42,122 nucleotides of DNA, from the NCBI GenBank assembly GCA_021849045.1, contig JAJZTK010000016.1, positions 1-42,122 of the forward strand, written 5' to 3'. Below the pieces are notes generated by a model. The model was given only the letters and a program-made list of their open reading frames with translations, was not told the DNA's origin and ran no database searches. Made by a program: the position numbers and the translations under genes. Source of the DNA: Deltaproteobacteria bacterium (GTDB taxonomy: Bacteria > Desulfobacterota > Desulfuromonadia > Geobacterales > DSM-12255). The number at the start of each line of letters is the position of its first letter. Position 1 is the first letter of the stretch. Shown one piece after another: positions 33,159 to 42,122 of the stretch.

Positions 33159-34304
33159 ATGCTGATATCTTGTGGGAAAAAGTATAGAGGTTCACTAATC
33201 TGCTCACTGTTGCTTGCTGCGCTCTGCCTGATTCTGTCAGCGTGCTCATTCACCCATAGCACCATGGGTAGTGGGGACCCGATCTATGACAAGTATCTGA
33301 AATTGACCAGGGATCAGGCCGACAAGAACCCCTTGGTTGGTATTTGGCAGGGAAGCGATGCCGGGAAAGAGATCCTTTTGGCAGTTCACCTGAATGATGA
33401 AGGCGGGCAGGAGAAACTGAAGGGGGTTATTCTCAACGGCAGTGACTTTGAAATCGGCTACCTGCGGGAAGACCCCTGGTTCTATGTGTCGCCGATGGCC
33501 GACCAGGGGGTATATGCCGGAAGAACATCATTGAAGTTTTTCTTTGTGCCCCGTTGGTTCCCAACACGGATTGTGATGAATGGCCCCAACCAGTTCACGG
33601 CCTATGATGACATACCGCCGAACATGAAAGCACTGGGAGGCAATACCCATTCGTACCTGCGCAAGGAAGCGCAAACGGCTACCATAGATGATGTCATGCG
33701 GTCATCGGGAAGCGGTTTCCTTTTGTGGGGTAGTAATAAGGTTCTGACCGCCCATCATGTGGTCAAGCATGCAAAGAAGACGTCGGTTCGTTTCCCCGAT
33801 GGCAGGAGATATGAGGCTGATATTGTTGCCAGCGACCCGGCTAACGATCTGGCGCTCCTTGAATTGCGAGGGTTTATTGCCGCCGATGAACGGGGATTGC
33901 ATATCCTGCAGGGGGTACCGGTTGCTCCCGGTGAAGAGATCCATGTCATCGGTTACCCGCTTGGGGCGATTCTCGGCAATCGACCGAGTATCGTTTCGGG
34001 GCAGGTGACTGCAGCGGTCGGGATCAGAAACGCGGAGAATCAGTTCAGGATATCGGCATCCATCAATCCCGGTAACAGCGGTGGTCCGATATTGAATTCC
34101 CGTGGCGAGGTGCTCGGTATTGCCGTTTCAGTGGTTCGCCAGCAACAGATTGAACGGGTTGCCTTCGGGGTCAGGGTTGGTACCTCGCTGCCAATTCCTG
34201 TTGACGCCATACAGAAGGGGAGTCAATCGGTACGTCAGCCGCAGGGGGCTGAGGGTGTCTTCAGGGACTTCTCACGTGATGTTGTGTTGATAACAGTTGA
34301 ATAG
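33159..34304 (+). CDS. Trypsin-like serine protease lipoprotein
   Basis: A 381-residue protein. A lipobox (LSAC, Cys29) after a hydrophobic stretch marks it as a lipoprotein. Residues about 40-175 form an uncharacterised N-terminal domain; the C-terminal two-thirds is an HtrA/DegP-like chymotrypsin fold with the catalytic triad in place: His200 (LTAHHVV), Asp230 (PANDLALL) and Ser307 (GNSGGP). There is no PDZ domain. The start at 33159 follows AAAAAGGAA. It is a single gene; the downstream terminator at 34362 serves it and the tRNA on the other strand. A role in envelope protein quality control or processing is plausible. Confidence 0.9.
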   Translation: MLISCGKKYRGSLICSLLLAALCLILSACSFTHSTMGSGDPIYDKYLKLTRDQADKNPLVGIWQGSDAGKEILLAVHLNDEGGQEKLKGVILNGSDFEIGYLREDPWFYVSPMADQGVYAGRTSLKFFFVPRWFPTRIVMNGPNQFTAYDDIPPNMKALGGNTHSYLRKEAQTATIDDVMRSSGSGFLLWGSNKVLTAHHVVKHAKKTSVRFPDGRRYEADIVASDPANDLALLELRGFIAADERGLHILQGVPVAPGEEIHVIGYPLGAILGNRPSIVSGQVTAAVGIRNAENQFRISASINPGNSGGPILNSRGEVLGIAVSVVRQQQIERVAFGVRVGTSLPIPVDAIQKGSQSVRQPQGAEGVFRDFSRDVVLITVE

Positions 34305-34421: not shown

Positions 34422-34480
34422 TGGCGGAGAGGTAGGGATTCGAACCCTAGGTGACTTGCGCCACACCTGATTTCGAGTCA
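34422..34480 (-). tRNA. tRNA-Ser(CGA) 3' half: attachment site of the element
   Basis: Read on the minus strand, this holds the anticodon loop CTCGAAA (anticodon CGA), the long variable arm typical of tRNA-Ser, a perfect T arm (TAGGG-TTCGAAT-CCCTA), and the acceptor CCTCTCC, discriminator G and encoded CCA. The 5' half is missing: the bases that should pair with the anticodon stem (CC before TGA) are AT. So this is a fragment left by an integration event. The intact tRNA, made of the chromosomal 5' half and the element's copy of the 3' half, should be at the other end of the element, to the right of this window. Confidence 0.88.
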
Positions 34481-34601
34481 ATTATTTTGTTGTTTCCAGC
34501 CGTTTCATACCTGATTTTCTATCCCATAAATAGCTTGACATTACCGTATGTTATCTGTATTCATTGTTCTCGTATGGTTTTTGTCGTTTCACATGCTGCA
34601 A

Positions 34602-34632
34602 ACCACACGGAGACCACACGAGAAACCACACG
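34602..34632 (+). repeat. Three direct repeats ACCACACG upstream of the integrase
   Basis: Copies at 34602-34609, 34613-34620 and 34625-34632, spaced 11 and 12 bases apart, close to one DNA turn. They lie between the attachment site and the integrase start and are good candidates for arm-type integrase or excisionase binding sites. Confidence 0.65.
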
Positions 34633-34653
34633 GTATATGGAGGGGGTGACACC

Positions 34654-36024
34654 ATGGGGAAAGAGAAGTTTACGGACAAGTTCATTGCGAACCTCAAGCC
34701 GGCTGGCAAGATTCAGGACATTCGGGAGGGGGACGGTTTTGGTGTCCGCGTTCTACCGTCCGGCATCAAGACGTTCTTCTTTCTCTACACCTTTGACGGC
34801 AAGCGCCGCTTTCTCAACCTTGGACATTACGGCACCGGCAACAATGGCGGCCTCACCCTCGCAGAGGCACGGAAGAAGTACAACGCTGCAAAGACGAAGT
34901 ACGACGGTGGCGTTGACCCACTAGGGGAGAAGGAACTTGCCCATATCGAGCGCAAGCGCACCCCTTTTGTTGCTGACTTCGTGGATGAGTACATCAACCG
35001 TCACGCCAAGGAGCACAACCGGGGGTGGAAGGAGATAGAGCGGGCACTGAAAGCCGAGATCGTTTCCAGATGGGGAAGGCGGAAAATAACGGATATTCGA
35101 CGCAGGGACTTGGTGGTGGTCCTGGACGAGATCATTGAACGTGGAGCGCCGGTCATGGCGAACAGGGTGCTGGCCTATACCCGTAAGCTGTTCTCCTATG
35201 CCGTCAAGCGTGACGTTCTGGAAGCGAATCCGTTCATGGGGATGGATAGGCCCGCGAAGGAGAGCGGCCGGGAGCGAGCACTATCCGCCAACGAGATCAA
35301 GACTCTTTGGGCCAACCTGGACAGCGCCAGAATGAGCGACAGCATCAAGCGCGCCCTGAAGCTCATTCTGGTCACGGCGCAACGACCGGGCGAAGTGATC
35401 GGGTTACACCGCAGCGAGATTGACGGCCAATGGTGGACGATCCCCGCCGAACGGTCGAAGAACAAGCAGGCGCACCGGGTATTTCTCTCACCGCTGGCCC
35501 TGGAACTGATTGGTGACAGGGATGGGTATATCTTCGAGTCTCCCGCCAACCCTGGCGTCGATGCAGAGGGGAAGCAACTCCCACCAACTCATTACGAAGT
35601 CCGCACCATGACCCGCGACATCAAGGCAAATTTGCCCCACACCCCCGAAAGCACGGTTGAAGACCGGCTGAAGATTGCCCACTTCACCCCGCACGACCTG
35701 AGACGGACGGCTGCAACCTGCATGGCGGAAATAGGGATTGCAGGTGACATTATCGACCGGGTACAGAATCACATCACGAAGCAGAAGCAGGGCGTTGGCC
35801 ACATCTACAACCGCTACTCGTATGATCGTGAGAAGCAGGCAGCTCTAGAGGAGCTGGAAATCAAGATATCCTGCATCCTTGCCGGCAAGGAGTACCGGAA
35901 CCGCCGCGAACGAGAAGAGGATGCGGCGAAATCGGCTGCTGAACAGGAAAACAATAGCACCGGCAAACAGTCTGCCACGGTCACGCCAATATCAGCAGGC
36001 CGAAAGGGAAGGAAGGTGGCATGA
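34654..36024 (+). CDS. Tyrosine recombinase integrase (P4-type)
   Basis: A 456-residue integrase. An N-terminal DUF4102-like arm-binding domain (about 1-95, LKPAGKIQDIREGDGFGVRV) precedes a core-binding domain (about 100-195) and the catalytic domain. Catalytic residues: Arg244 (TAQRPGEVIGL), His347 and Arg350 (HDLRRTAAT), and Tyr385 (HIYNRYSY). The start at 34654 follows GGAGGGGGTGACACC; an upstream in-frame ATG at 34564 overlaps the arm repeats. It mediates integration at the tRNA-Ser. The C-terminal 60 residues are a charged extension. The next gene overlaps by ATGA. Confidence 0.95.
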   Translation: MGKEKFTDKFIANLKPAGKIQDIREGDGFGVRVLPSGIKTFFFLYTFDGKRRFLNLGHYGTGNNGGLTLAEARKKYNAAKTKYDGGVDPLGEKELAHIERKRTPFVADFVDEYINRHAKEHNRGWKEIERALKAEIVSRWGRRKITDIRRRDLVVVLDEIIERGAPVMANRVLAYTRKLFSYAVKRDVLEANPFMGMDRPAKESGRERALSANEIKTLWANLDSARMSDSIKRALKLILVTAQRPGEVIGLHRSEIDGQWWTIPAERSKNKQAHRVFLSPLALELIGDRDGYIFESPANPGVDAEGKQLPPTHYEVRTMTRDIKANLPHTPESTVEDRLKIAHFTPHDLRRTAATCMAEIGIAGDIIDRVQNHITKQKQGVGHIYNRYSYDREKQAALEELEIKISCILAGKEYRNRREREEDAAKSAAEQENNSTGKQSATVTPISAGRKGRKVA

Positions 36025-36665
36025 ATACCAACAAGACCTTTGTCGCAGTGGGAGTCACGGACGCGGCGGAGTTGCTTGCCTGGAGGTTGCCACCCAAGAA
36101 TCGGGCTGCTTTACTGAAGGCTGTCAGCCTGGAGGAAGGTGAACCCGCAGCAGTGAGGTTTCTGGAGAGCATGGAGCATGCTATCCGTTCCGCCTTGTGG
36201 CGTGAAGACCTGAAGTCGCACCGGGCTGAGGTCAAGTTGGCATTGCTGAAAACAGCGGAGCAAGGCAAGGCACTCCTTGACGCACTCGACCAGATGCCGG
36301 AAGCCGGCCGGGCGTATTTCCGTCATGCAGGCATGCTGCTGGCCACCGCAAGAGAAAAGGCCTCCGAGGTATGGATGGTGACAGAACGTGCGGCCCTGCA
36401 AGCAAACAACGATCTTTCTGGACGGGGAGACGATCACGACAGTAACCCCGCCATTCTCGCAGCTGACATTGCACAAGCTATGCAGCAAGTTGGCATCAAG
36501 CCATCCTTGACCCGGCCCAAATACGACAAGGCCGGCAACCTGAGCGAACCACCTTTCTGGACCGTGACGACTATCTGTTTCCACCTTGCCGGGTTCCCCC
36601 ACAAAGACCCTTACCCTCACATGCGGGACGGACTCAAGCACGTCACCATTGGTTGCGAAGATTAG
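36021..36665 (+). CDS. Hypothetical protein in the integrase operon
   Basis: A 214-residue soluble protein overlapping the integrase by ATGA, so it is co-translated. The first 120 residues are helix-rich (AELLAWRLPPKNRAALLKA); the C-terminal part is different (PSLTRPKYDKAGNLSEPPFW). I recognise no domain. It may modulate integration or excision by position, but nothing in the sequence shows it. Confidence 0.75.
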   Translation: MNTNKTFVAVGVTDAAELLAWRLPPKNRAALLKAVSLEEGEPAAVRFLESMEHAIRSALWREDLKSHRAEVKLALLKTAEQGKALLDALDQMPEAGRAYFRHAGMLLATAREKASEVWMVTERAALQANNDLSGRGDDHDSNPAILAADIAQAMQQVGIKPSLTRPKYDKAGNLSEPPFWTVTTICFHLAGFPHKDPYPHMRDGLKHVTIGCED

Positions 36666-36752
36666 CCGCATTCCCCCCGAATCCCCGCAACGCTACAACT
36701 GACGGTCGTTTCACTATCCTTCATGACATAACACATCGTCATGGAGGTACCA

Positions 36753-36956
36753 ATGAAGCGCCAAGCTGTAGCATCCCACCAAACCATCTACCGCAACATC
36801 GACCTTGACCGGATCACCGGATTATCCCGGACGACTCGCTGGCGGCTTGAGCGAGACGGCCAGTTTCCCGCGCGCCGTTCATTGACCGGAAGCCGGGCTG
36901 TTGGCTGGCTGGCCGAAGAGGTGGACGCCTGGATTGCTGGCCGTTTGGCCGCATAG
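36753..36956 (+). CDS. AlpA-like DNA-binding regulator
   Basis: A 67-residue protein with a MerR/AlpA-type helix-turn-helix (ITGLSRTTRWRLERDGQFP) and the usual WLAEEVDAWI C-terminus. AlpA proteins activate integrase or excision genes in P4-type elements. The start at 36753 has GGAGG 5 bases upstream; ATG 36741 abuts that site and is unlikely. The position in the rightward operon, before the replication-type genes, fits. Confidence 0.88.
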   Translation: MKRQAVASHQTIYRNIDLDRITGLSRTTRWRLERDGQFPARRSLTGSRAVGWLAEEVDAWIAGRLAA

Positions 36957-36965
36957 GGGGCGGAC

Positions 36966-37202
36966 ATGCGACCATCGACCATCGAGACCCAGAACATTGA
37001 CCTTGCCGCCACCATCCAAGCCGTAACCGGGACGGAGCCAACCATTACCCAAGGCGGACCCCTGGCCACCTTCACCTTTCCCGCAGCTCAGATCGTCAAG
37101 GACGTGCTCGTTGGCTACGAGACCGGCCTACAGATCGAGGCCCGGCGGCTGTTGGCTACGCGCAACCAGTTATTCCGCCGGTTGAGAGGGGGGCGGGCAT
37201 GA
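36966..37202 (+). CDS. Small hypothetical protein (DUF5659-like)
   Basis: A 78-residue protein with a TFTFP...VLVGYETGLQIEARR pattern that recalls DUF5659 phage proteins, which have no known function. It lies 9 bases after the AlpA gene and overlaps the next by 4 bases (ATGA at 37199). Confidence in expression is good; the family is tentative. Confidence 0.6.
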   Translation: MRPSTIETQNIDLAATIQAVTGTEPTITQGGPLATFTFPAAQIVKDVLVGYETGLQIEARRLLATRNQLFRRLRGGRA

Positions 37203-37660
37203 GCGAGCTTACCGGCACCCCCGCAGGATTCAACCTTCGCCCGATACGAAAACGGCTGGGAAAACGCGGTGACAGCAAGTTGCCACCATCCCCCCCATTT
37301 GAATCACTCGTGGACTTCACGCCCTGGCAGACGCGCCCCTTGCCGTACTTCAGCACCGTCCCTGAACAGCGGTGGAAGGATAACCCGGCATGGTCCGGGC
37401 TCTCGTGGCAAGACAAAGGCCTGTTCATGATTCTCTGTGATTGGTGTTGGCTGTACGGCGGCGCGATCCGCACGGACGATTTACCCACCATTGCAAGAGC
37501 AATCAGGATCGACCCGGCTGAGTTGCAACAGGCGGTGGATAGGTTGCTTGACGCTGACCTGTTTTATGAGATTCAGGGCCGGCTGGTTCAACTGGAGTTG
37601 AGAGAGCAACAGATCGTGACTGCTCATGACCGGGGGGCTTCAGGGGACGTTCCCATATGA
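37199..37660 (+). CDS. DUF1376-like phage replication-region protein
   Basis: A 153-residue protein overlapping the preceding one by ATGA. Residues about 45-140 (PLPYFSTVPEQRWKDNPAW, LSWQDKGLFMILCDWCW, IRTDDLPTIARAIRI) match the winged-helix DUF1376/YdaU pattern found in phage replication initiators. It lacks the longer C-terminal part of those proteins, so it may be a short variant. It precedes the hairpin and hexamer region at 37685. Confidence 0.68.
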   Translation: MSELTGTPAGFNLRPIRKRLGKRGDSKLPPSPPFESLVDFTPWQTRPLPYFSTVPEQRWKDNPAWSGLSWQDKGLFMILCDWCWLYGGAIRTDDLPTIARAIRIDPAELQQAVDRLLDADLFYEIQGRLVQLELREQQIVTAHDRGASGDVPI

Positions 37661-37684
37661 TCTTAGCCTTTCCTCGCAACAACC

Positions 37685-37724
37685 AGACTTAGAGCTATAC
37701 CAGATAAGACTTAGACTTAGACTA
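37685..37724 (+). repeat. AGACTT hexamer repeats
   Basis: AGACTT at 37685, 37707 and 37713, then AGACTA at 37719; the last three are tandem with no gap. They lie just upstream of the alternative hairpins and the nuclease gene. They could be a protein-binding site or a small origin iteron, but the number and spacing do not settle this. Confidence 0.5.
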
Positions 37725-37728
37725 GCAC

Positions 37729-37767
37729 GCGGGCTGCAAACGCGGCCCGCACATGCGGGTAAGGAGA
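37729..37767 (+). promoter_or_regulatory. Two mutually exclusive hairpins before the nuclease ribosome binding site
   Basis: GCGGGC (37729-37734) can pair with GCCCGC (37745-37750); alternatively CCCGC (37746-37750) can pair with GCGGG (37755-37759) around a four-base ACAT loop. They share bases 37746-37750, so only one can form. The second ends directly beside AAGGAG (37761-37766). This is the layout of an attenuator or translational switch, but there is no T-run. Confidence 0.5.
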
Positions 37768-37774
37768 CACCACA

Positions 37775-38305
37775 ATGACATCATCAGCAATCACCACCAA
37801 CCACGCACCCGCCACCTTCAATGAAGCCGGTTGGCAGGAACGAAAGCGGTTCCTGGGCAACACGGCAGAGGAAGCATTTGAAATCGTGGCAGCGGCCAAG
37901 GGCATTGCCTTTGAACGCCTGGGGATGGATCGGCAAAGCCCGCTGACATACCGCAATCTGCACCCGTATATCACCAAACGCCCTGACTACCTGTGTCAGC
38001 GCGCCGGCAAGTCCTACTTCATGGAAGTGAAGGGAACCGGGACAGATGGCGTCGTCAAGATCAAGCTGGACTCCCTGGAGGTGGGCCGGTTCTGGTCGAC
38101 GCTCCACCCGGTCAACTTTTTCCTGTTCGACTCAACCCGGAAACAGTGGGCAATCATCGACATTGATGAGGTGTTGGCGATTATCCATCGGAACCGGCTC
38201 ACCACCACCTGCTTCAATGACGGCAACCAGTTCTACCCGGTACCGCGAGACTGCTTCTCCTGGCAACAGATGCCAGATACGGCAGCAAATCAACAGGCCG
38301 CATAG
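37775..38305 (+). CDS. PD-(D/E)XK-type nuclease-like protein
   Basis: A 176-residue protein with the core pattern of a PD-(D/E)XK nuclease: RPDYL (Asp71) followed by FMEVKG (Glu84 and Lys86), spaced as in Holliday-junction-resolvase and VRR-type nucleases. Flanking segments (FLGNTAEEAFEIVAAAKG, FFLFDSTRKQW) resemble the fold. The start at 37775 follows TAAGGAGA. It is preceded by alternative hairpins. A role in element replication, resolution or defence is possible; activity cannot be shown. Confidence 0.7.
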   Translation: MTSSAITTNHAPATFNEAGWQERKRFLGNTAEEAFEIVAAAKGIAFERLGMDRQSPLTYRNLHPYITKRPDYLCQRAGKSYFMEVKGTGTDGVVKIKLDSLEVGRFWSTLHPVNFFLFDSTRKQWAIIDIDEVLAIIHRNRLTTTCFNDGNQFYPVPRDCFSWQQMPDTAANQQAA

Positions 38306-38336
38306 ATACAAACCCCAGCCCGGCACCGTCTGGCAC

Positions 38337-38478
38337 GAAGGCCACAATGAACACCACGACGAACAGCACACGGGGGATGATCATAACTATCCGCCAGCAC
38401 AGCGAATATCAGAACCCGAACAACCACGAAGAGCACAATGAACCGCACAGCGAAGCCCACACGGGCAAAGGAGACCAG
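38337..38478 (+). repeat. Imperfect direct repeat in the leader of the next gene
   Basis: The stretch around 38337-38377 (GAAGGCCACAATGAACACCA) recurs imperfectly about 101 bases later near 38438-38478 (GAAGAGCACAATGAACCGCA), both followed by ACACGGG. The first copy contains an ATG at 38347 that opens the same frame as the next gene. It looks like a duplicated leader. Confidence 0.4.
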
Positions 38479-38481
38479 ACC

Positions 38482-38769
38482 ATGATGATCCCCATTCACG
38501 ACGGCAAGCAAGACCTGATGATTAGCAGCGACCTGTACAGCTTCACCCTCTGCGAGAAGCGCACGAGAGAGGGGGTCGTAATATGGGAGGCAACCAAGTG
38601 GTTTACCAACCTGGATGTCCTGTGTGGCCACCTTCTGCGCTCCAAACTCCGCAATAGTGACGCGCAGTCCATTACTGAACTCAGTGCGGACCTTGAACGG
38701 GCAAAGCAAGAGTTGAGCGATTTATGGACATGTGACCCGGCGAAGATTATGCCGCGTCGCGCAGCGTAA
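38482..38769 (+). CDS. Conserved phage-type hypothetical protein
   Basis: A 95-residue protein from ATG 38482, which has AAAGGAGA 8 bases upstream; an upstream ATG at 38347 would add a low-complexity His/Asn-rich stretch. The core (DLMISSDLYSFTLCEKR, WFTNLDVLCGHLLRSKLR, SITELSADLERAKQEL) resembles small phage proteins of unknown function with a strand-helix arrangement. Last gene of the rightward run; no clear terminator. Confidence 0.7.
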   Translation: MMIPIHDGKQDLMISSDLYSFTLCEKRTREGVVIWEATKWFTNLDVLCGHLLRSKLRNSDAQSITELSADLERAKQELSDLWTCDPAKIMPRRAA

Positions 38770-39005
38770 GCCTGGGGAAACGGGTTTTCCAGCTTTAGAC
38801 ATACTCAGACCTACTAGGGCCGGTGCTGAACATGGCCGGCCCGGATACAAAAACAGGGGGGGCGTTGGCGAGATAGAAATACCTCTCCGTGTGGGCGGGC
38901 TTCCTGGATTCTCTACCACATAATATTTCTATTAATAAAACATACTCTATTAGTTATATATACTACTGCACTGGCCGTGCCAATCTACCCGCCCCCGCAG
39001 TGAGC
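38770..39005. other. Convergent gap with hairpin and AT-rich tract
   Basis: No gene. GGGCCGG (38817-38823) and CCGGCCC (38836-38842) form a perfect 7-base stem with a 12-base loop. From about 38921 to 38970 the sequence is strongly AT-rich. It lies where rightward and leftward element genes meet and could hold terminators for both, although the T-runs are poor. Confidence 0.5.
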
Positions 39006-39206
39006 TTACTTGTCGTCACGCTGCTTCCCTAACCCTGCCAGCCTAAACGAGAAAAAGAACACCAGAATTGACGCAATCAGCATTAGAACATCAAACCATA
39101 GCGCGGTCGTTCCTCTGCTGCGCAGAACAGGATCAACGCGCGTCGAAATCAATCCAATTACCCAGAGTCCAACCAAAGACATAACAACGGCTTTAACCAC
39201 CTTCAT
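39006..39206 (-). CDS. Small membrane protein, two helices
   Basis: A 66-residue protein with two hydrophobic segments (about 4-22 and 37-56) and a basic, charged C-terminus (GLGKQRDDK). The start at 39206 has GGGGGAG upstream. It has no domain I recognise. Size and position in a phage-like element would suit a holin or lysis-linked protein, but this is only suggestive. Confidence 0.6.
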   Translation of the reverse strand: MKVVKAVVMSLVGLWVIGLISTRVDPVLRSRGTTALWFDVLMLIASILVFFFSFRLAGLGKQRDDK

Positions 39207-39244
39207 GTTTCGTCTCCCCCATATCGCTCGCCTTATCCAGCATG

Positions 39245-39592
39245 TCAGAATGAGATGAGAACGGCGTTCCCCTTTGCCGTCTCAACCGGGACGACCCGCA
39301 ATCGGATTAGATCGGACTCGCTTTTCGTGTCCCCCTTGTCCCTGATCAAGCAGTAAATCTCATAGCCCATGTCGCCAGACGGAGCGATACGCCCCAATCC
39401 ACTGCTGAGTTTAAAGGCCGGCACAAAGAGCACATCCCATAGACGGGCGTCCTCTTCCTGGTAGCCCTGGCGGTCGCTGTCGTCGTCTCCCCACTCGACG
39501 CATTTATCCCAAACTTCTTCAGATAGATAAACAGGGCAGGAGAAGCCCGCCTCATAAGCCGTTGATGTTACATCGATAAATTGAGATTCCAT
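39245..39592 (-). CDS. DUF6573-like protein
   Basis: A 115-residue protein. The run DVTSTAYEAGFSCPVYLSEE, WDKCVEW and EEDARLWDVLFVPAFKL matches the DUF6573 family seen in plasmids and integrative elements; function unknown. The start at 39592 has GAGG 5 bases upstream; ATG 39613 is an alternative that overlaps the stop of the neighbour. Adjacent genes on the same strand suggest an operon. Confidence 0.72.
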   Translation of the reverse strand: MESQFIDVTSTAYEAGFSCPVYLSEEVWDKCVEWGDDDSDRQGYQEEDARLWDVLFVPAFKLSSGLGRIAPSGDMGYEIYCLIRDKGDTKSESDLIRLRVVPVETAKGNAVLISF

Positions 39593-39612
39593 TTTTGCCT
39601 CAAACCACTCCA

Positions 39613-40029
39613 TCACTTATACTTAGAAAGTTCCATCCTTGCGGCTTGGAGTTCTTGTTTCAGCTTTTCATTAACTTCTAAACTCACCTTGATAGAAGCG
39701 TTATAATCTTCGATTGATGCAGATATTTTTTTAGCAGATTTATCTCGGGCTGCCTCTTTTGATTGGCCACACCTCTCTGCCAAGTCAACGCTTTCAGCAA
39801 TGTCAAGCGTTGCAGTTAGCTGGGTTCTTTGAAGAGCGCGGTAGGCGATGCGTATCATGAATTCATTCGAGGCAATAACATCTTCATAAGAAGTAACCTT
39901 TTTTTGCCAATAATCCTTTGGGAATACTGCTTTTTGAAAGGCTTCTGTCTTTCTAAGTTCATTGGCTCCCACAGCCGCCAGCACTAAGAGAACAATCAAA
40001 ATAAAACGATTCATAGAAGAACGCCCCAT
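39613..40029 (-). CDS. Membrane-anchored coiled-coil protein
   Basis: A 138-residue protein from ATG 40029 (CAGGTG just upstream); ATG 40014 is an alternative. Residues about 7-22 are hydrophobic (FILIVLLVLAAVGA), followed by a charged helix-rich body and a C-terminal coiled coil (about 95-138, LEVNEKLKQELQAARMEL). It resembles phage spanin or Rz-like proteins by layout, but no family is certain. It overlaps the next gene's alternative start. Confidence 0.6.
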   Translation of the reverse strand: MGRSSMNRFILIVLLVLAAVGANELRKTEAFQKAVFPKDYWQKKVTSYEDVIASNEFMIRIAYRALQRTQLTATLDIAESVDLAERCGQSKEAARDKSAKKISASIEDYNASIKVSLEVNEKLKQELQAARMELSKYK

Positions 40030-40067
40030 AAAAACACCTGAGCAGTAAAAAGGATTACGCGACAAAC

Positions 40068-40110
40068 AAAAAGCCCACTCAGAACGCAATTCTGCATCCG
40101 AGCGGGCTTT
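40068..40110 (-). terminator. Rho-independent terminator of the Cys-rich gene
   Basis: Read on the minus strand: AAAGCCCGCTC pairs with GAGTGGGCTTT (one G-T pair) around a loop with an inner AGAA/TTCT stem, then TTTTT. This ends transcription of the leftward genes from 40533 and above, so 40029 downwards may need its own promoter. Confidence 0.75.
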
Positions 40111-40254
40111 CCGGGGCCTGGGCATGCTCACCGGGGCGGCAAAGTACCTGCACACCCTGTGCATACCACAGTTTTGTTTCATGATCAAATTTTTATTGAT
40201 GAGAGATGGGGGGGCGGCTGGCATGTACGAGCGCGGCTCTGCGTGATGATCGAG

Positions 40255-40533
40255 CTACCCGTAGTAGACGTACCGGCGGTATGCGGCACATTCACGCCCG
40301 GTGCTGGAACAGTAGAGAATTGCAGCCGCTTCGCATGTCTTGCAAGGAGGGTCATTGAAGTGCACTGTTACCTGCTGGTCGACACCCCCCAGGTAAGTAT
40401 AGAAGCCCATCAACTGCCTGTCAGCGGCGAGATATTCGCGCTTCGCCTGCTTGGCGTCTGCCTGGGTGTGGCCACGGAGCGCAAGCCACAAGCGTGCGCG
40501 TCGGCATATCTGCTCCTTGGTCGTAAGTTCCAT
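40255..40533 (-). CDS. Cys-rich phage-type small protein
   Basis: A 92-residue protein starting at ATG 40533. The N-terminal half is helical and charged (QICRRARLWLALRGH, QAKREYLAADRQLMG); the C-terminal half has CKTCEAAAILYC and a later Cys, a possible zinc knuckle. I do not recognise the family. An in-frame upstream region to 40731 exists but is proline/arginine-rich and unlikely to be translated. Confidence 0.6.
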   Translation of the reverse strand: MELTTKEQICRRARLWLALRGHTQADAKQAKREYLAADRQLMGFYTYLGGVDQQVTVHFNDPPCKTCEAAAILYCSSTGRECAAYRRYVYYG

Positions 40534-40661
40534 GCCGCCACGGTAACGGGCCGGGGCATGTGGGGGAAGTAGGCTGCGGCGGGAAAATCTGCACCCCATC
40601 TGGGGGGAAGGCTGACCTTCATGCGGGGGTATACTGCGCGCGCAACAAGGAGGGGGCCGGA

Positions 40662-41315
40662 TTACGGCAAGTCCCCGCTGCCGGTGCCGAAGCGTATGGC
40701 CGAGTTTTCCGGCGCCATGGTGCCGTCCCAATTGAGGCCGTTACGCCAGTTAGAGACGCCATTGCTGATGCCGTTCCAGCCGCCCAGCTTGCGATAGGTA
40801 GCACCACCAGCTCCAACCAGCGCACCAATCGCGCTGCCATACAATCCGCTAGTAAACGCGCTGTTGTTCGCGTCGATCTGTGCTTGGTTGAGCTGACGAG
40901 AGAGCGCGTTGCCCTCGCTGCTGACCAGCGCCGCGTTTACGTTGGGCATCGTGCCGGAGATGGTATCGGAGAGTCCCCGGATCGCCCCTATGCGCGCATT
41001 CTCAATATTCTGAGAATCTTGCGGCGCAGCCATTGCCGCCGTAGTACCTGCCGCGCGCCACGCTTCCCGCGCTTTACCCGTATTCGGGTTGGCGATGGAG
41101 GCCGCCGGGGTGATGGTCGCAAGCGCGTCGGCACGTGATCGACCAAGCGCGGCCAATTTCTGCTCAAAGTCGGGCTTGGCGAGCGACTCCATAAACTGAT
41201 TCTCAAAGGTCCGGCCGTGGTTTGTCCACCAGTTCCATTGTTCGGCTAGAACGCGCTTTGCCGACCGTTCTTCCTGCGTGTACTGGAGGTTGCCTTGACC
41301 GTCCACATAAGGCAT
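40662..41315 (-). CDS. Candidate phage virion or internal protein
   Basis: A 217-residue protein with AGGAG upstream of ATG 41315. An N-terminal charged helical region (EERSAKRVLAEQWNWW) is followed by an Ala/Asn/Ser-rich middle and a Gly-rich stretch (YGSAIGALVGAGGATY) that may insert in a membrane. Composition recalls podovirus internal or ejection proteins, but no family is certain. It is the only virion-like gene seen in the element. Confidence 0.55.
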   Translation of the reverse strand: MPYVDGQGNLQYTQEERSAKRVLAEQWNWWTNHGRTFENQFMESLAKPDFEQKLAALGRSRADALATITPAASIANPNTGKAREAWRAAGTTAAMAAPQDSQNIENARIGAIRGLSDTISGTMPNVNAALVSSEGNALSRQLNQAQIDANNSAFTSGLYGSAIGALVGAGGATYRKLGGWNGISNGVSNWRNGLNWDGTMAPENSAIRFGTGSGDLP

Positions 41316-41337
41316 GTGCGACTCCTATGTCGTGGTA

Positions 41338-41487
41338 TTAAGCCGTTGCGGTTTGTCCATGGTAATGGTGCGTCAACGCTTCTTGCCAGAACTCTACATA
41401 CTCATGCGGTGAGCCCCCAACAAAGATGTTTTGGGGGCGCGGTCCGAAGCGAAATGCATAGAGCCTTGGTGATGATCCTGACGCCAT
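41338..41487 (-). CDS. Small hypothetical protein
   Basis: A 49-residue frame from ATG 41487 with AAGGAAA just upstream. It lies between the virion-like gene and the KilA-N gene on the same strand with short gaps, so it is likely expressed. Content is FRFGPRPQNIFVGGSPHEY then an acidic/His end. No known domain. Confidence 0.45.
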   Translation of the reverse strand: MASGSSPRLYAFRFGPRPQNIFVGGSPHEYVEFWQEALTHHYHGQTATA

Positions 41488-41510
41488 TTTCCTTACTGTG
41501 ACACCCTCCG

Positions 41511-41864
41511 TCACTTGGTGGAAGCAGCCGCGCCTTGCGTCATGGCATCGTAAGCGCGGATTACCTGGAGGTGGAACTTGGGGCTGATCCACATGGCATA
41601 GGCGTAGACGAGTTCCTTGCAGACGAAGGTGCCAGGGGTGCTGCCACCATGGAATGAGCTAAGTGGCTGTAATTGTTCCGTGCCGGGAATTCCCGGCTTG
41701 GTGAGTTCGTCAATTAATTCGACTGTTTGGCGGTTTCTTAGCCATTCATTTGGGGCGTGGCGCTTCTCCCCACCAGCCGCCCGGTGAAGATCGTTGAGAC
41801 AATAGCGTCCCTCGTTGTCCTGCCGAATCTCCGTGTTGGCGACGATTATTACGTGACAAATCAT
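41511..41864 (-). CDS. KilA-N domain protein
   Basis: A 117-residue protein that is essentially one KilA-N domain (RYCLNDLHRAAGGEKRHAP, WLRNRQTVELIDEL, ELVYAYAMWISPKFHLQVI). KilA-N domains occur in phage and DNA-virus proteins and bind DNA. The start at 41864 is ATG; GTG 41867 is adjacent. No clear ribosome binding site. It probably acts as a regulator or antirepressor in the element. Confidence 0.85.
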   Translation of the reverse strand: MICHVIIVANTEIRQDNEGRYCLNDLHRAAGGEKRHAPNEWLRNRQTVELIDELTKPGIPGTEQLQPLSSFHGGSTPGTFVCKELVYAYAMWISPKFHLQVIRAYDAMTQGAAASTK

Positions 41865-41886
41865 CACGAAGCAAAAGCGTTGGGGG

Positions 41887-42117
41887 TCAGCACACCGGCA
41901 GGGTGGTACTGGGGCAAATTGGAAAGTTCAAAAAATCCGAGAGGCTGCATGGTCGACTATGATGCATTCCGACCCGCCCGGCCAAAAACGGGGTATGGGG
42001 GTCTCCCCCCCTGGGGGTGTCGGCCTGGAACCGGGAGCGCACCGCGCGCGGCGTGGTCAATGTGACGCGCTCGCCCATCCTGCAAGGGTTTATGGCGTTT
42101 TTCATGGGCGGTTGCAA
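41887..42117 (-). CDS. Possible small phage protein (low confidence)
   Basis: A 76-residue frame just upstream of KilA-N, with RVTLTTPRAVRSRF and FLAGRVGMHHSRP segments of the kind I associate with small proteins of P4-like elements. The opposite strand also has an open frame to the window edge, so the coding strand is uncertain. Starts at 42117 and 42105 are possible. Confidence 0.35.
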   Translation of the reverse strand: MQPPMKNAINPCRMGERVTLTTPRAVRSRFQADTPRGGDPHTPFLAGRVGMHHSRPCSLSDFLNFPICPSTTLPVC

Positions 42118-42122
42118 AGCAG

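Follow-up and report, generated by a model that had tools for sequence, protein, structure and literature searches.

The stretch of DNA considered here (the window) is the 42,122-nt contig JAJZTK010000016.1 of a Geobacterales genome (Deltaproteobacteria bacterium, assembly GCA_021849045.1); it is the entire contig C22 of this host genome (271 contigs, 4.33 Mb) and stops at 42122. Its last 7.7 kb (34422-42122) carry an integrated element that is probably a phage satellite residing in tRNA-Ser(CGA), of the kind represented by phage-inducible chromosomal islands (PICI) and phage-inducible chromosomal minimalist islands (PICMI). By analogy with relatives whose ends are both recognised, the element is most likely roughly 10 kb in size and a satellite of podophages, and perhaps about three quarters of it lie inside the window. 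The following features were recognised, with E-values or search results in brackets and other genomes designated by handles such as G050.

34422-34480, minus strand: displaced 3' fragment of tRNA-Ser(CGA), 59 nt, integrase-side attachment site (comparison with the intact tRNA of G001)
34654-36024, plus strand: 456-aa tyrosine integrase, counted from the ATG at 34654 (Arm-DNA-bind_3, 3e-16; Phage_integrase, 3e-12)
36021-36665, plus strand: 214-aa gene with an ATGA overlap (bases 36021-36024) with the integrase stop, the positional counterpart of PICMI iolg
36741-36956, plus strand: AlpA-type excisionase/regulator, 71 aa (PF05930, 7e-12; phrog_2790, 2e-11)
36966-37202, plus strand: 78-aa signature protein (phmmer 6e-9 and 4e-8 against two G050 elements)
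37199-37660, plus strand: DUF1376-like protein, a probable replication gene (Pfam below cut-off; phmmer homologues)
37775-38305, plus strand: 176-aa protein (tblastn matches in two phage records, 1e-8 and 3e-5)
38347-38769, plus strand: 140-aa protein of phrog_154, replication initiation (5e-8)
39006-40035, minus strand: three accessory genes for a 66-aa membrane-type, a 123-aa DUF6573-like and a 140-aa protein
40255-40533, minus strand: 92-aa open reading frame (ORF) with cysteines
40662-41315, minus strand: 217-aa protein of the phrog_611 family, podophage virion-cassette type (family hidden Markov model, HMM)
41338-41592, minus strand: small ORF adjoining the 217-aa gene (phmmer 1e-4 to a 66-aa gene beside the G199 counterpart)
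41511-41867, minus strand: KilA-N/antirepressor-type regulator (PF04383, 2e-23; phrog_129, 5e-48)

The initial annotation described a tRNA-Ser(CGA) cut near the anticodon stem, with the integrase beside the displaced 3' fragment, and comparison with other genomes bears this out. On the minus strand, 34422-34480 reads TGACTCGAAATCAGG...CCTCTCCGCCA and spans the last bases of the 5' anticodon strand, the anticodon loop, the variable arm, the T arm and CCA; across its 59 nt it is 90% identical to the intact tRNA-Ser(CGA) of the congener G001, and 173 nt separate it from the integrase on its right, for which an alternative longer TTG start at 34564 is possible. Neither ARAGORN (for tRNAs) nor Rfam (for RNAs) gave a match in the window. 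Matches to the fragment are present in 50 of the 58 genomes searched (host included) and, among the matches listed, those outside the host are 83-92% identical; judged from these sequences, the match is not due to chance. An intact tRNA-Ser(CGA) was not found in the host's 271 contigs, where the only serine tRNAs found were those with TGA and GCT anticodons (both on C76), and the far junction therefore probably lies in an assembly gap. A continuation beyond 42122 was sought in the host assembly and not found, and a search of the host with the DNA around the tRNA-Ser of G001 gave no further junction.

The gene types originally proposed for this element stood in part: AlpA and KilA-N were recovered with clear scores, while DUF1376 (22.8 bits) and DUF6573 (24.9 bits, Pfam cut-off 27) remained below their thresholds. 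The DUF1376 call is supported because a homologue occurs in an element of Geotalea described below (phmmer 3e-22), and the corresponding protein of the element G050-A matches at 3e-7. The 140-aa phrog_154 protein has relatives of 97 and 96 aa in the two G050 elements (3e-5 and 7e-5), and none were found for it in phage records; the 176-aa protein gave none in IMG/VR and contains, by eye, what we take to be a nuclease-like motif. Family matches of the 214-aa gene are at chance level only, NCBIfam named the integrase alone among ten window proteins, PADLOC run with six element genes returned a single match at 0.008, and AlphaFold models built from single sequences reached low mean predicted local distance difference test (pLDDT) values of 37.5 and 32.7. 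As initially stated, no capsid or terminase gene was recognised in these 7.7 kb, nor was a portal or tail gene.

The KilA-N protein has 599 relatives in IMG/VR, and its domain is too common to be informative. Over stretches of 81-252 bp, part of its gene shares 70-86% DNA identity with phages of Pseudomonas, Komagataeibacter, Vibrio, Escherichia and Salmonella (among 20 listed of 56 matching records). This similarity suggests that the domain has been exchanged.

The most telling gene of the right-hand part encodes the 217-aa protein. Searched alone, it matches phrog_611 at an E-value of 0.002. Its homologue in G199 (26% identity, 5e-10; 2 of 195 class genomes match, host included) is a clear member of that family (4e-11) and also matches phrog_8003, annotated as a virion structural protein (2e-8). 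A leave-one-out HMM, built from six family members with the window protein excluded and searched against the 439 ORFs of the window, recovered the 217-aa ORF as its sole match (49.4 bits, E-value 1.2e-14), the best of 1000 shuffles reaching 12.1 bits. These sequence comparisons indicate that the protein is a distant phrog_611 member. No relatives of it were found in phage records or plasmids, whereas the G199 homologue matches 101 Vibrio records; IMG/VR held no confirmed relatives of phrog_611-type proteins, and no solved structure matches the phrog_611 profile. In a tree of 11 phrog_611 proteins, satellite and phage members are not separated, and five of the eight inner branches remain open. 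In the Vibrio phage K249, the phrog_611 homologue stands downstream of a head gene, after a tail fibre gene and before a phrog_601 homologue and a 2502-aa gene, and G609, G570 and G182 have, by eye, cassettes like it. This is presumably where small podophage ejection proteins would be expected, and from this cassette position we infer, as a hypothesis, that the 217-aa protein may be an ejection protein.

Five of 277 class genomes match the phrog_611 profile. Two of these (G182 and G197) look like phage cassettes by eye, and the other three give four integrated elements with recognisable boundaries.

G199 element: 10.1 kb, perfect 34-bp repeats; integrase, overlapping gene, helix-turn-helix (HTH) gene, DnaD-like gene, 66-aa gene, phrog_611, phrog_601
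G234 element: 9.7 kb, 40-bp repeats, tRNA-Arg(CCT); integrase, AlpA, replication-type protein, phrog_611, DUF4238-Pers, AlbA-type cargo
G050-A element: 10.4 kb, 47-bp repeats in tRNA-Asn(GTT)
G050-B element: 10.1 kb, 28-bp repeats (27/28 alike)

These elements resemble that of the window in combining phrog_611 with an integrase, an AlpA or HTH gene and a replication-type gene, their attachment (att) repeats enclosing about 10 kb; they differ in their att sites, their cargo and the place of phrog_611, phrog_601 being present in G199 and the 80-aa counterpart of the 78-aa protein only in G050. Identity to the window integrase is 47% for G050-A and 41% for G234; the integrase of G050-B is related to that of G199. 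The window and both G050 elements have in common the 80-aa protein and the phrog_154-like gene, within a shared block that runs integrase, AlpA or HTH gene, 80-aa protein, DUF1376-like or primosomal-type gene and phrog_154, with phrog_611 inside the block in G050. G050-A additionally shares AlpA, the integrase and the DUF1376-like gene with the window, whereas in their place G050-B has a different HTH gene, a different integrase and a gene of primosomal type. Both G050 elements carry an ADP-ribosylglycohydrolase gene, in G050-A an antirepressor gene lies close to the far att site, and the cargo of G234 is of defence type (DUF4238-Pers, PDC-S50).

The gene content of the window element and the four bounded elements was scanned with 94 ORFs. 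Selection by decreasing length, with a minimum of 60 aa and no more than 50% overlap, supplied 93; one window ORF was then dropped and two AlpA genes were added, so that shorter or overlapping genes fall outside the scan. These ORFs gave 16 Pfam families at E-values of at most 1e-3, none of them a capsid, portal, terminase, tail or relaxase family, and no described structural family appeared among the 25 listed of their 51 PHROGs families. The only particle-type genes recognised in the four bounded elements are phrog_611 and, in G199, phrog_601.

These observations bear directly on the alternative that the element is a complete or trimmed podophage prophage, with the 217-aa protein derived from its own virion cassette and the capsid, portal and terminase genes located past 42122. 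Genes of the phrog_611 and KilA-N types are indeed present in real phages, and the contig ends within the element. However, in K249, and by eye in G609, G182 and G197, a larger virion-type gene follows within about 2 kb of phrog_611, where the window has the 92-aa ORF and the accessory genes, and the four bounded relatives, at about 10 kb, contain no recognised capsid, portal or terminase gene. A prophage is accordingly regarded as unlikely.

A wider family of elements is marked by the 78-aa protein. Its profile gave matches in 29 of 277 class genomes, every one of them a member of the host's order, with three places in the host itself. The further places in the host are on C24 (L295) and C165 (L294); one is a 9.2-kb contig with integrase, AlpA-like and phrog_154-like genes, and the other has AlpA near tRNA-Arg(CCT). 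From 36 profile match rows other than those of the window and G050, 20 loci were fetched, some of the stretches stopping at contig ends. The integrase gene precedes the 78/80-aa gene on the same strand in 14 of the 20, and AlpA adjoins it in 11 (phmmer 1e-4). Repeats of 46-51 bp bound five of the loci, at one tRNA-Arg, two tRNA-Pro and two tRNA-Asn genes, with sizes of 7.3-15.8 kb, and a sixth has a 23-bp repeat at 7.6 kb; where five loci were read gene by gene, by eye, a replication-type gene follows the 78-aa gene and mixed cargo comes next. The wider family thus consists of small elements, most of them integrated in tRNA genes, that are built around an AlpA-type core; the virion-type gene phrog_611 marks a few members and, in addition, G199 and G234, which are without the 80-aa protein. 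The 78-aa protein provides a simple marker for finding such elements. An open viral contig of 8.6 kb (L245, IMGVR_UViG_3300003473_000018), not used as evidence here, carries a 44% identical integrase, AlpA, a weak 78-aa match and genes that look tail hub- and spike-like by eye, possibly representing a satellite with another virion part.

The integrase opens a second view, that of tRNA-Ser(CGA) as an integration hotspot. Integrase matches occur in 53 of the 58 genomes, and the six outside the host that are 66-74% identical to the window integrase all have the 59-nt tRNA fragment upstream. In three of these six, an intact tRNA-Ser(CGA) closes the element, which measures 7.3 kb in G026 (Geotalea sp. 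SG265), 18.1 kb in G029 and 3.6 kb in G033, with exact repeats of 61, 65 and 60 bp, respectively; 11.1 kb lie between tRNA copies in Geomonas oryzae S43, and 7.0 kb between two tRNA fragments in Geomonas limicola. An integrase-alignment scan of named genomes located the tRNA fragment at seven of nine integrase loci, the exceptions being L234 (61%) and L235 (25%). The Geotalea element starts with integrase, AlpA and DUF1376-like genes and includes a protein with weak similarity to small terminase subunits (0.008, below cut-off). That of G. limicola starts with integrase, followed by genes for a 153-aa protein, an AlpA-like protein and an 867-aa protein, the last primase/helicase-like by eye. 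Because the same-site elements, with genes read by eye, share few genes beyond the integrase, the integrase appears to be tied to the site rather than to the content. In G001 (C8; L209 9850-11373), the intact tRNA-Ser(CGA) is adjoined by a second integrase, only 27% identical to that of the window; this second lineage lies on the opposite side of the intact tRNA and has relatives in G130 and G036.

Such variety at one site invites the reading that the window holds an integrative mobilizable element or a defence island that carries the tRNA-Ser(CGA) integrase, moves by conjugative or other transfer and has picked up stray phage genes. The large protein of the 11.1-kb Geomonas oryzae element is relaxase-like by eye, and the 18-kb element of G029 has, by eye, restriction-like genes. 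Against this, no relaxase was recognised in the 7.7 kb of the window element, nor do the 16 Pfam families from the scan that also covered its four bounded relatives include one, and AlpA, the replication-type genes and the phrog_611 protein are phage-type, which makes this reading quite improbable. Least probable is a decayed mosaic of several insertions that is now immobile: the two convergent halves of the element, the closeness in DNA of the start of the KilA-N gene to unrelated phages and the lack of any relative matching the whole element would fit it, but the recognised genes are open reading frames, the integrase gene has an ATGA overlap with its neighbour, and the 217-aa gene has AGGAG ahead of its start (the only start examined).

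Among described satellites, the PICMI of Vibrionaceae are arranged in the order integrase, overlapping gene, AlpA, one small gene and primase, with the gene overlapping the integrase present in 21 of 35 published subfamilies, ATGA being the commonest overlap, and with AlpA expression sufficient for excision (PMC10803314). The window element resembles them in having an integrase and AlpA, an ATGA-overlapping gene and a single small gene that separates AlpA from the replication-type gene. The published PICMI models make a DUF3987/DUF5906 primase mandatory and treat a fis site as optional in the first model and mandatory in the Vibrionaceae search (PMC10803314). In contrast, no such primase was recognised in the element's 7.7 kb, its site is tRNA-Ser(CGA) instead of fis, and it carries a phage virion-type protein; because of the primase and the site, the element is not a PICMI by the published models.

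Gram-negative PICIs, including EcCIMP1 of Escherichia coli, likewise have an integrase followed by AlpA, with a primase/helicase next, and their induction and packaging depend on a helper phage; EcCIMP1 carries DNA-transfer-protein-like genes resembling those of its helper (PICI anatomy in PMC11773190). The window element differs in that its 7.7 kb gave DUF1376/phrog_154-type genes but no recognised primase/helicase and in that its virion-type family is phrog_611. Capsid-forming PICIs contain their own capsid genes; none was recognised in the 7.7 kb of the window element or in the scanned ORFs of the four bounded relatives. Satellite strategies described in the sources cited include redirected packaging, a reshaped capsid, an own capsid and a DNA motif (PMC11389934, PMC6893505). 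EcCIMP1 is the closest precedent: open-licence PMC literature on satellites with ejection or DNA-transfer proteins, on AlpA with DUF1376 and on Geobacter yielded nothing nearer, and the present family was not found named there. The full text of open-licence papers gave a single match to 'phage satellites' together with 'Geobacter', a review on antibiotics.

The suggestion that the element could be a satellite is the best supported of those considered, because of its left module, its 217-aa protein and the four bounded relatives of about 10 kb without a recognised packaging gene; the further idea of a hybrid of undescribed type holds in part only, the element being PICI/PICMI-like, though its family was not found named. 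Several points weigh against the satellite reading. Some concern the element itself: its far end lies beyond the contig, so packaging genes may lie past 42122; the DUF1376 call falls short of the Pfam cut-off of 30.1 bits; phrog_611 sits close to the right end and on the other strand, whereas in G050 it is part of the leading block; and at the same tRNA this integrase lineage is found with different cargo as well. Others concern phrog_611, which is annotated as 'unknown'. The family is rare, its profile matching 5 of 277 class genomes with the host below the profile limit, and of these five only G050 reaches 90% completeness with contamination of 5% or less; a phylum scan with a profile built here matched 3 of 395 genomes, namely the host and two others whose loci look like phage cassettes by eye. 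The fetched stretches of the 20 further 78-aa loci yielded no phrog_611, and no copy besides that of the window was found in the host, so that a resident helper of this type was not found. The remaining points concern the bounded relatives: G050-A and G050-B each cross a contig end and were paired via att repeats and via overlaps between contigs (29 and 130 bp); in G234 one att copy adjoins a masked run; and G199 and G234 show no 80-aa match, the HTH gene of G199 being like that of G050-B and not a Pfam AlpA.

If the element is a satellite, its life cycle might proceed as follows. Upon infection by a helper podophage, AlpA and the integrase would excise the element, the DUF1376 and phrog_154 genes would replicate it, and its DNA would be packed into the helper's particle. 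The 217-aa protein would enter that particle, replacing or joining the helper's small ejection protein and thereby securing or retuning DNA delivery, with the KilA-N protein serving as a regulator, probably an antirepressor or helper sensor. This leads to a speculative proposal, termed ejection piracy, which is itself rather doubtful: Geobacterales podophage satellites may supply their own small internal or ejection protein rather than remodel the capsid, with the virion part swapped according to the helper. An ejection-cassette gene kept without recognisable capsid or packaging genes would suggest the delivery step as a further target of satellites.

Near the contig end, C168 was considered as a continuation of the window and rejected: window 42055-42114 and C168 positions 14-73 share 60 bp (98% identical) with flanks that differ on both sides, and the C168 stretch was taken as a second copy of a short repeat. 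The 60-bp stretch may be a short repeat common to mobile elements and a cause of the assembly break; its copy on C168 stands at the contig start, about 600 bp from the 3' end of tRNA-Gln(CTG). The left neighbour of the insertion is a trypsin-like, lipoprotein-type gene (33159-34304) with matches in 57 of the 58 genomes (host included), the best of which outside the host are 35-36% identical and cover the protease domain only.

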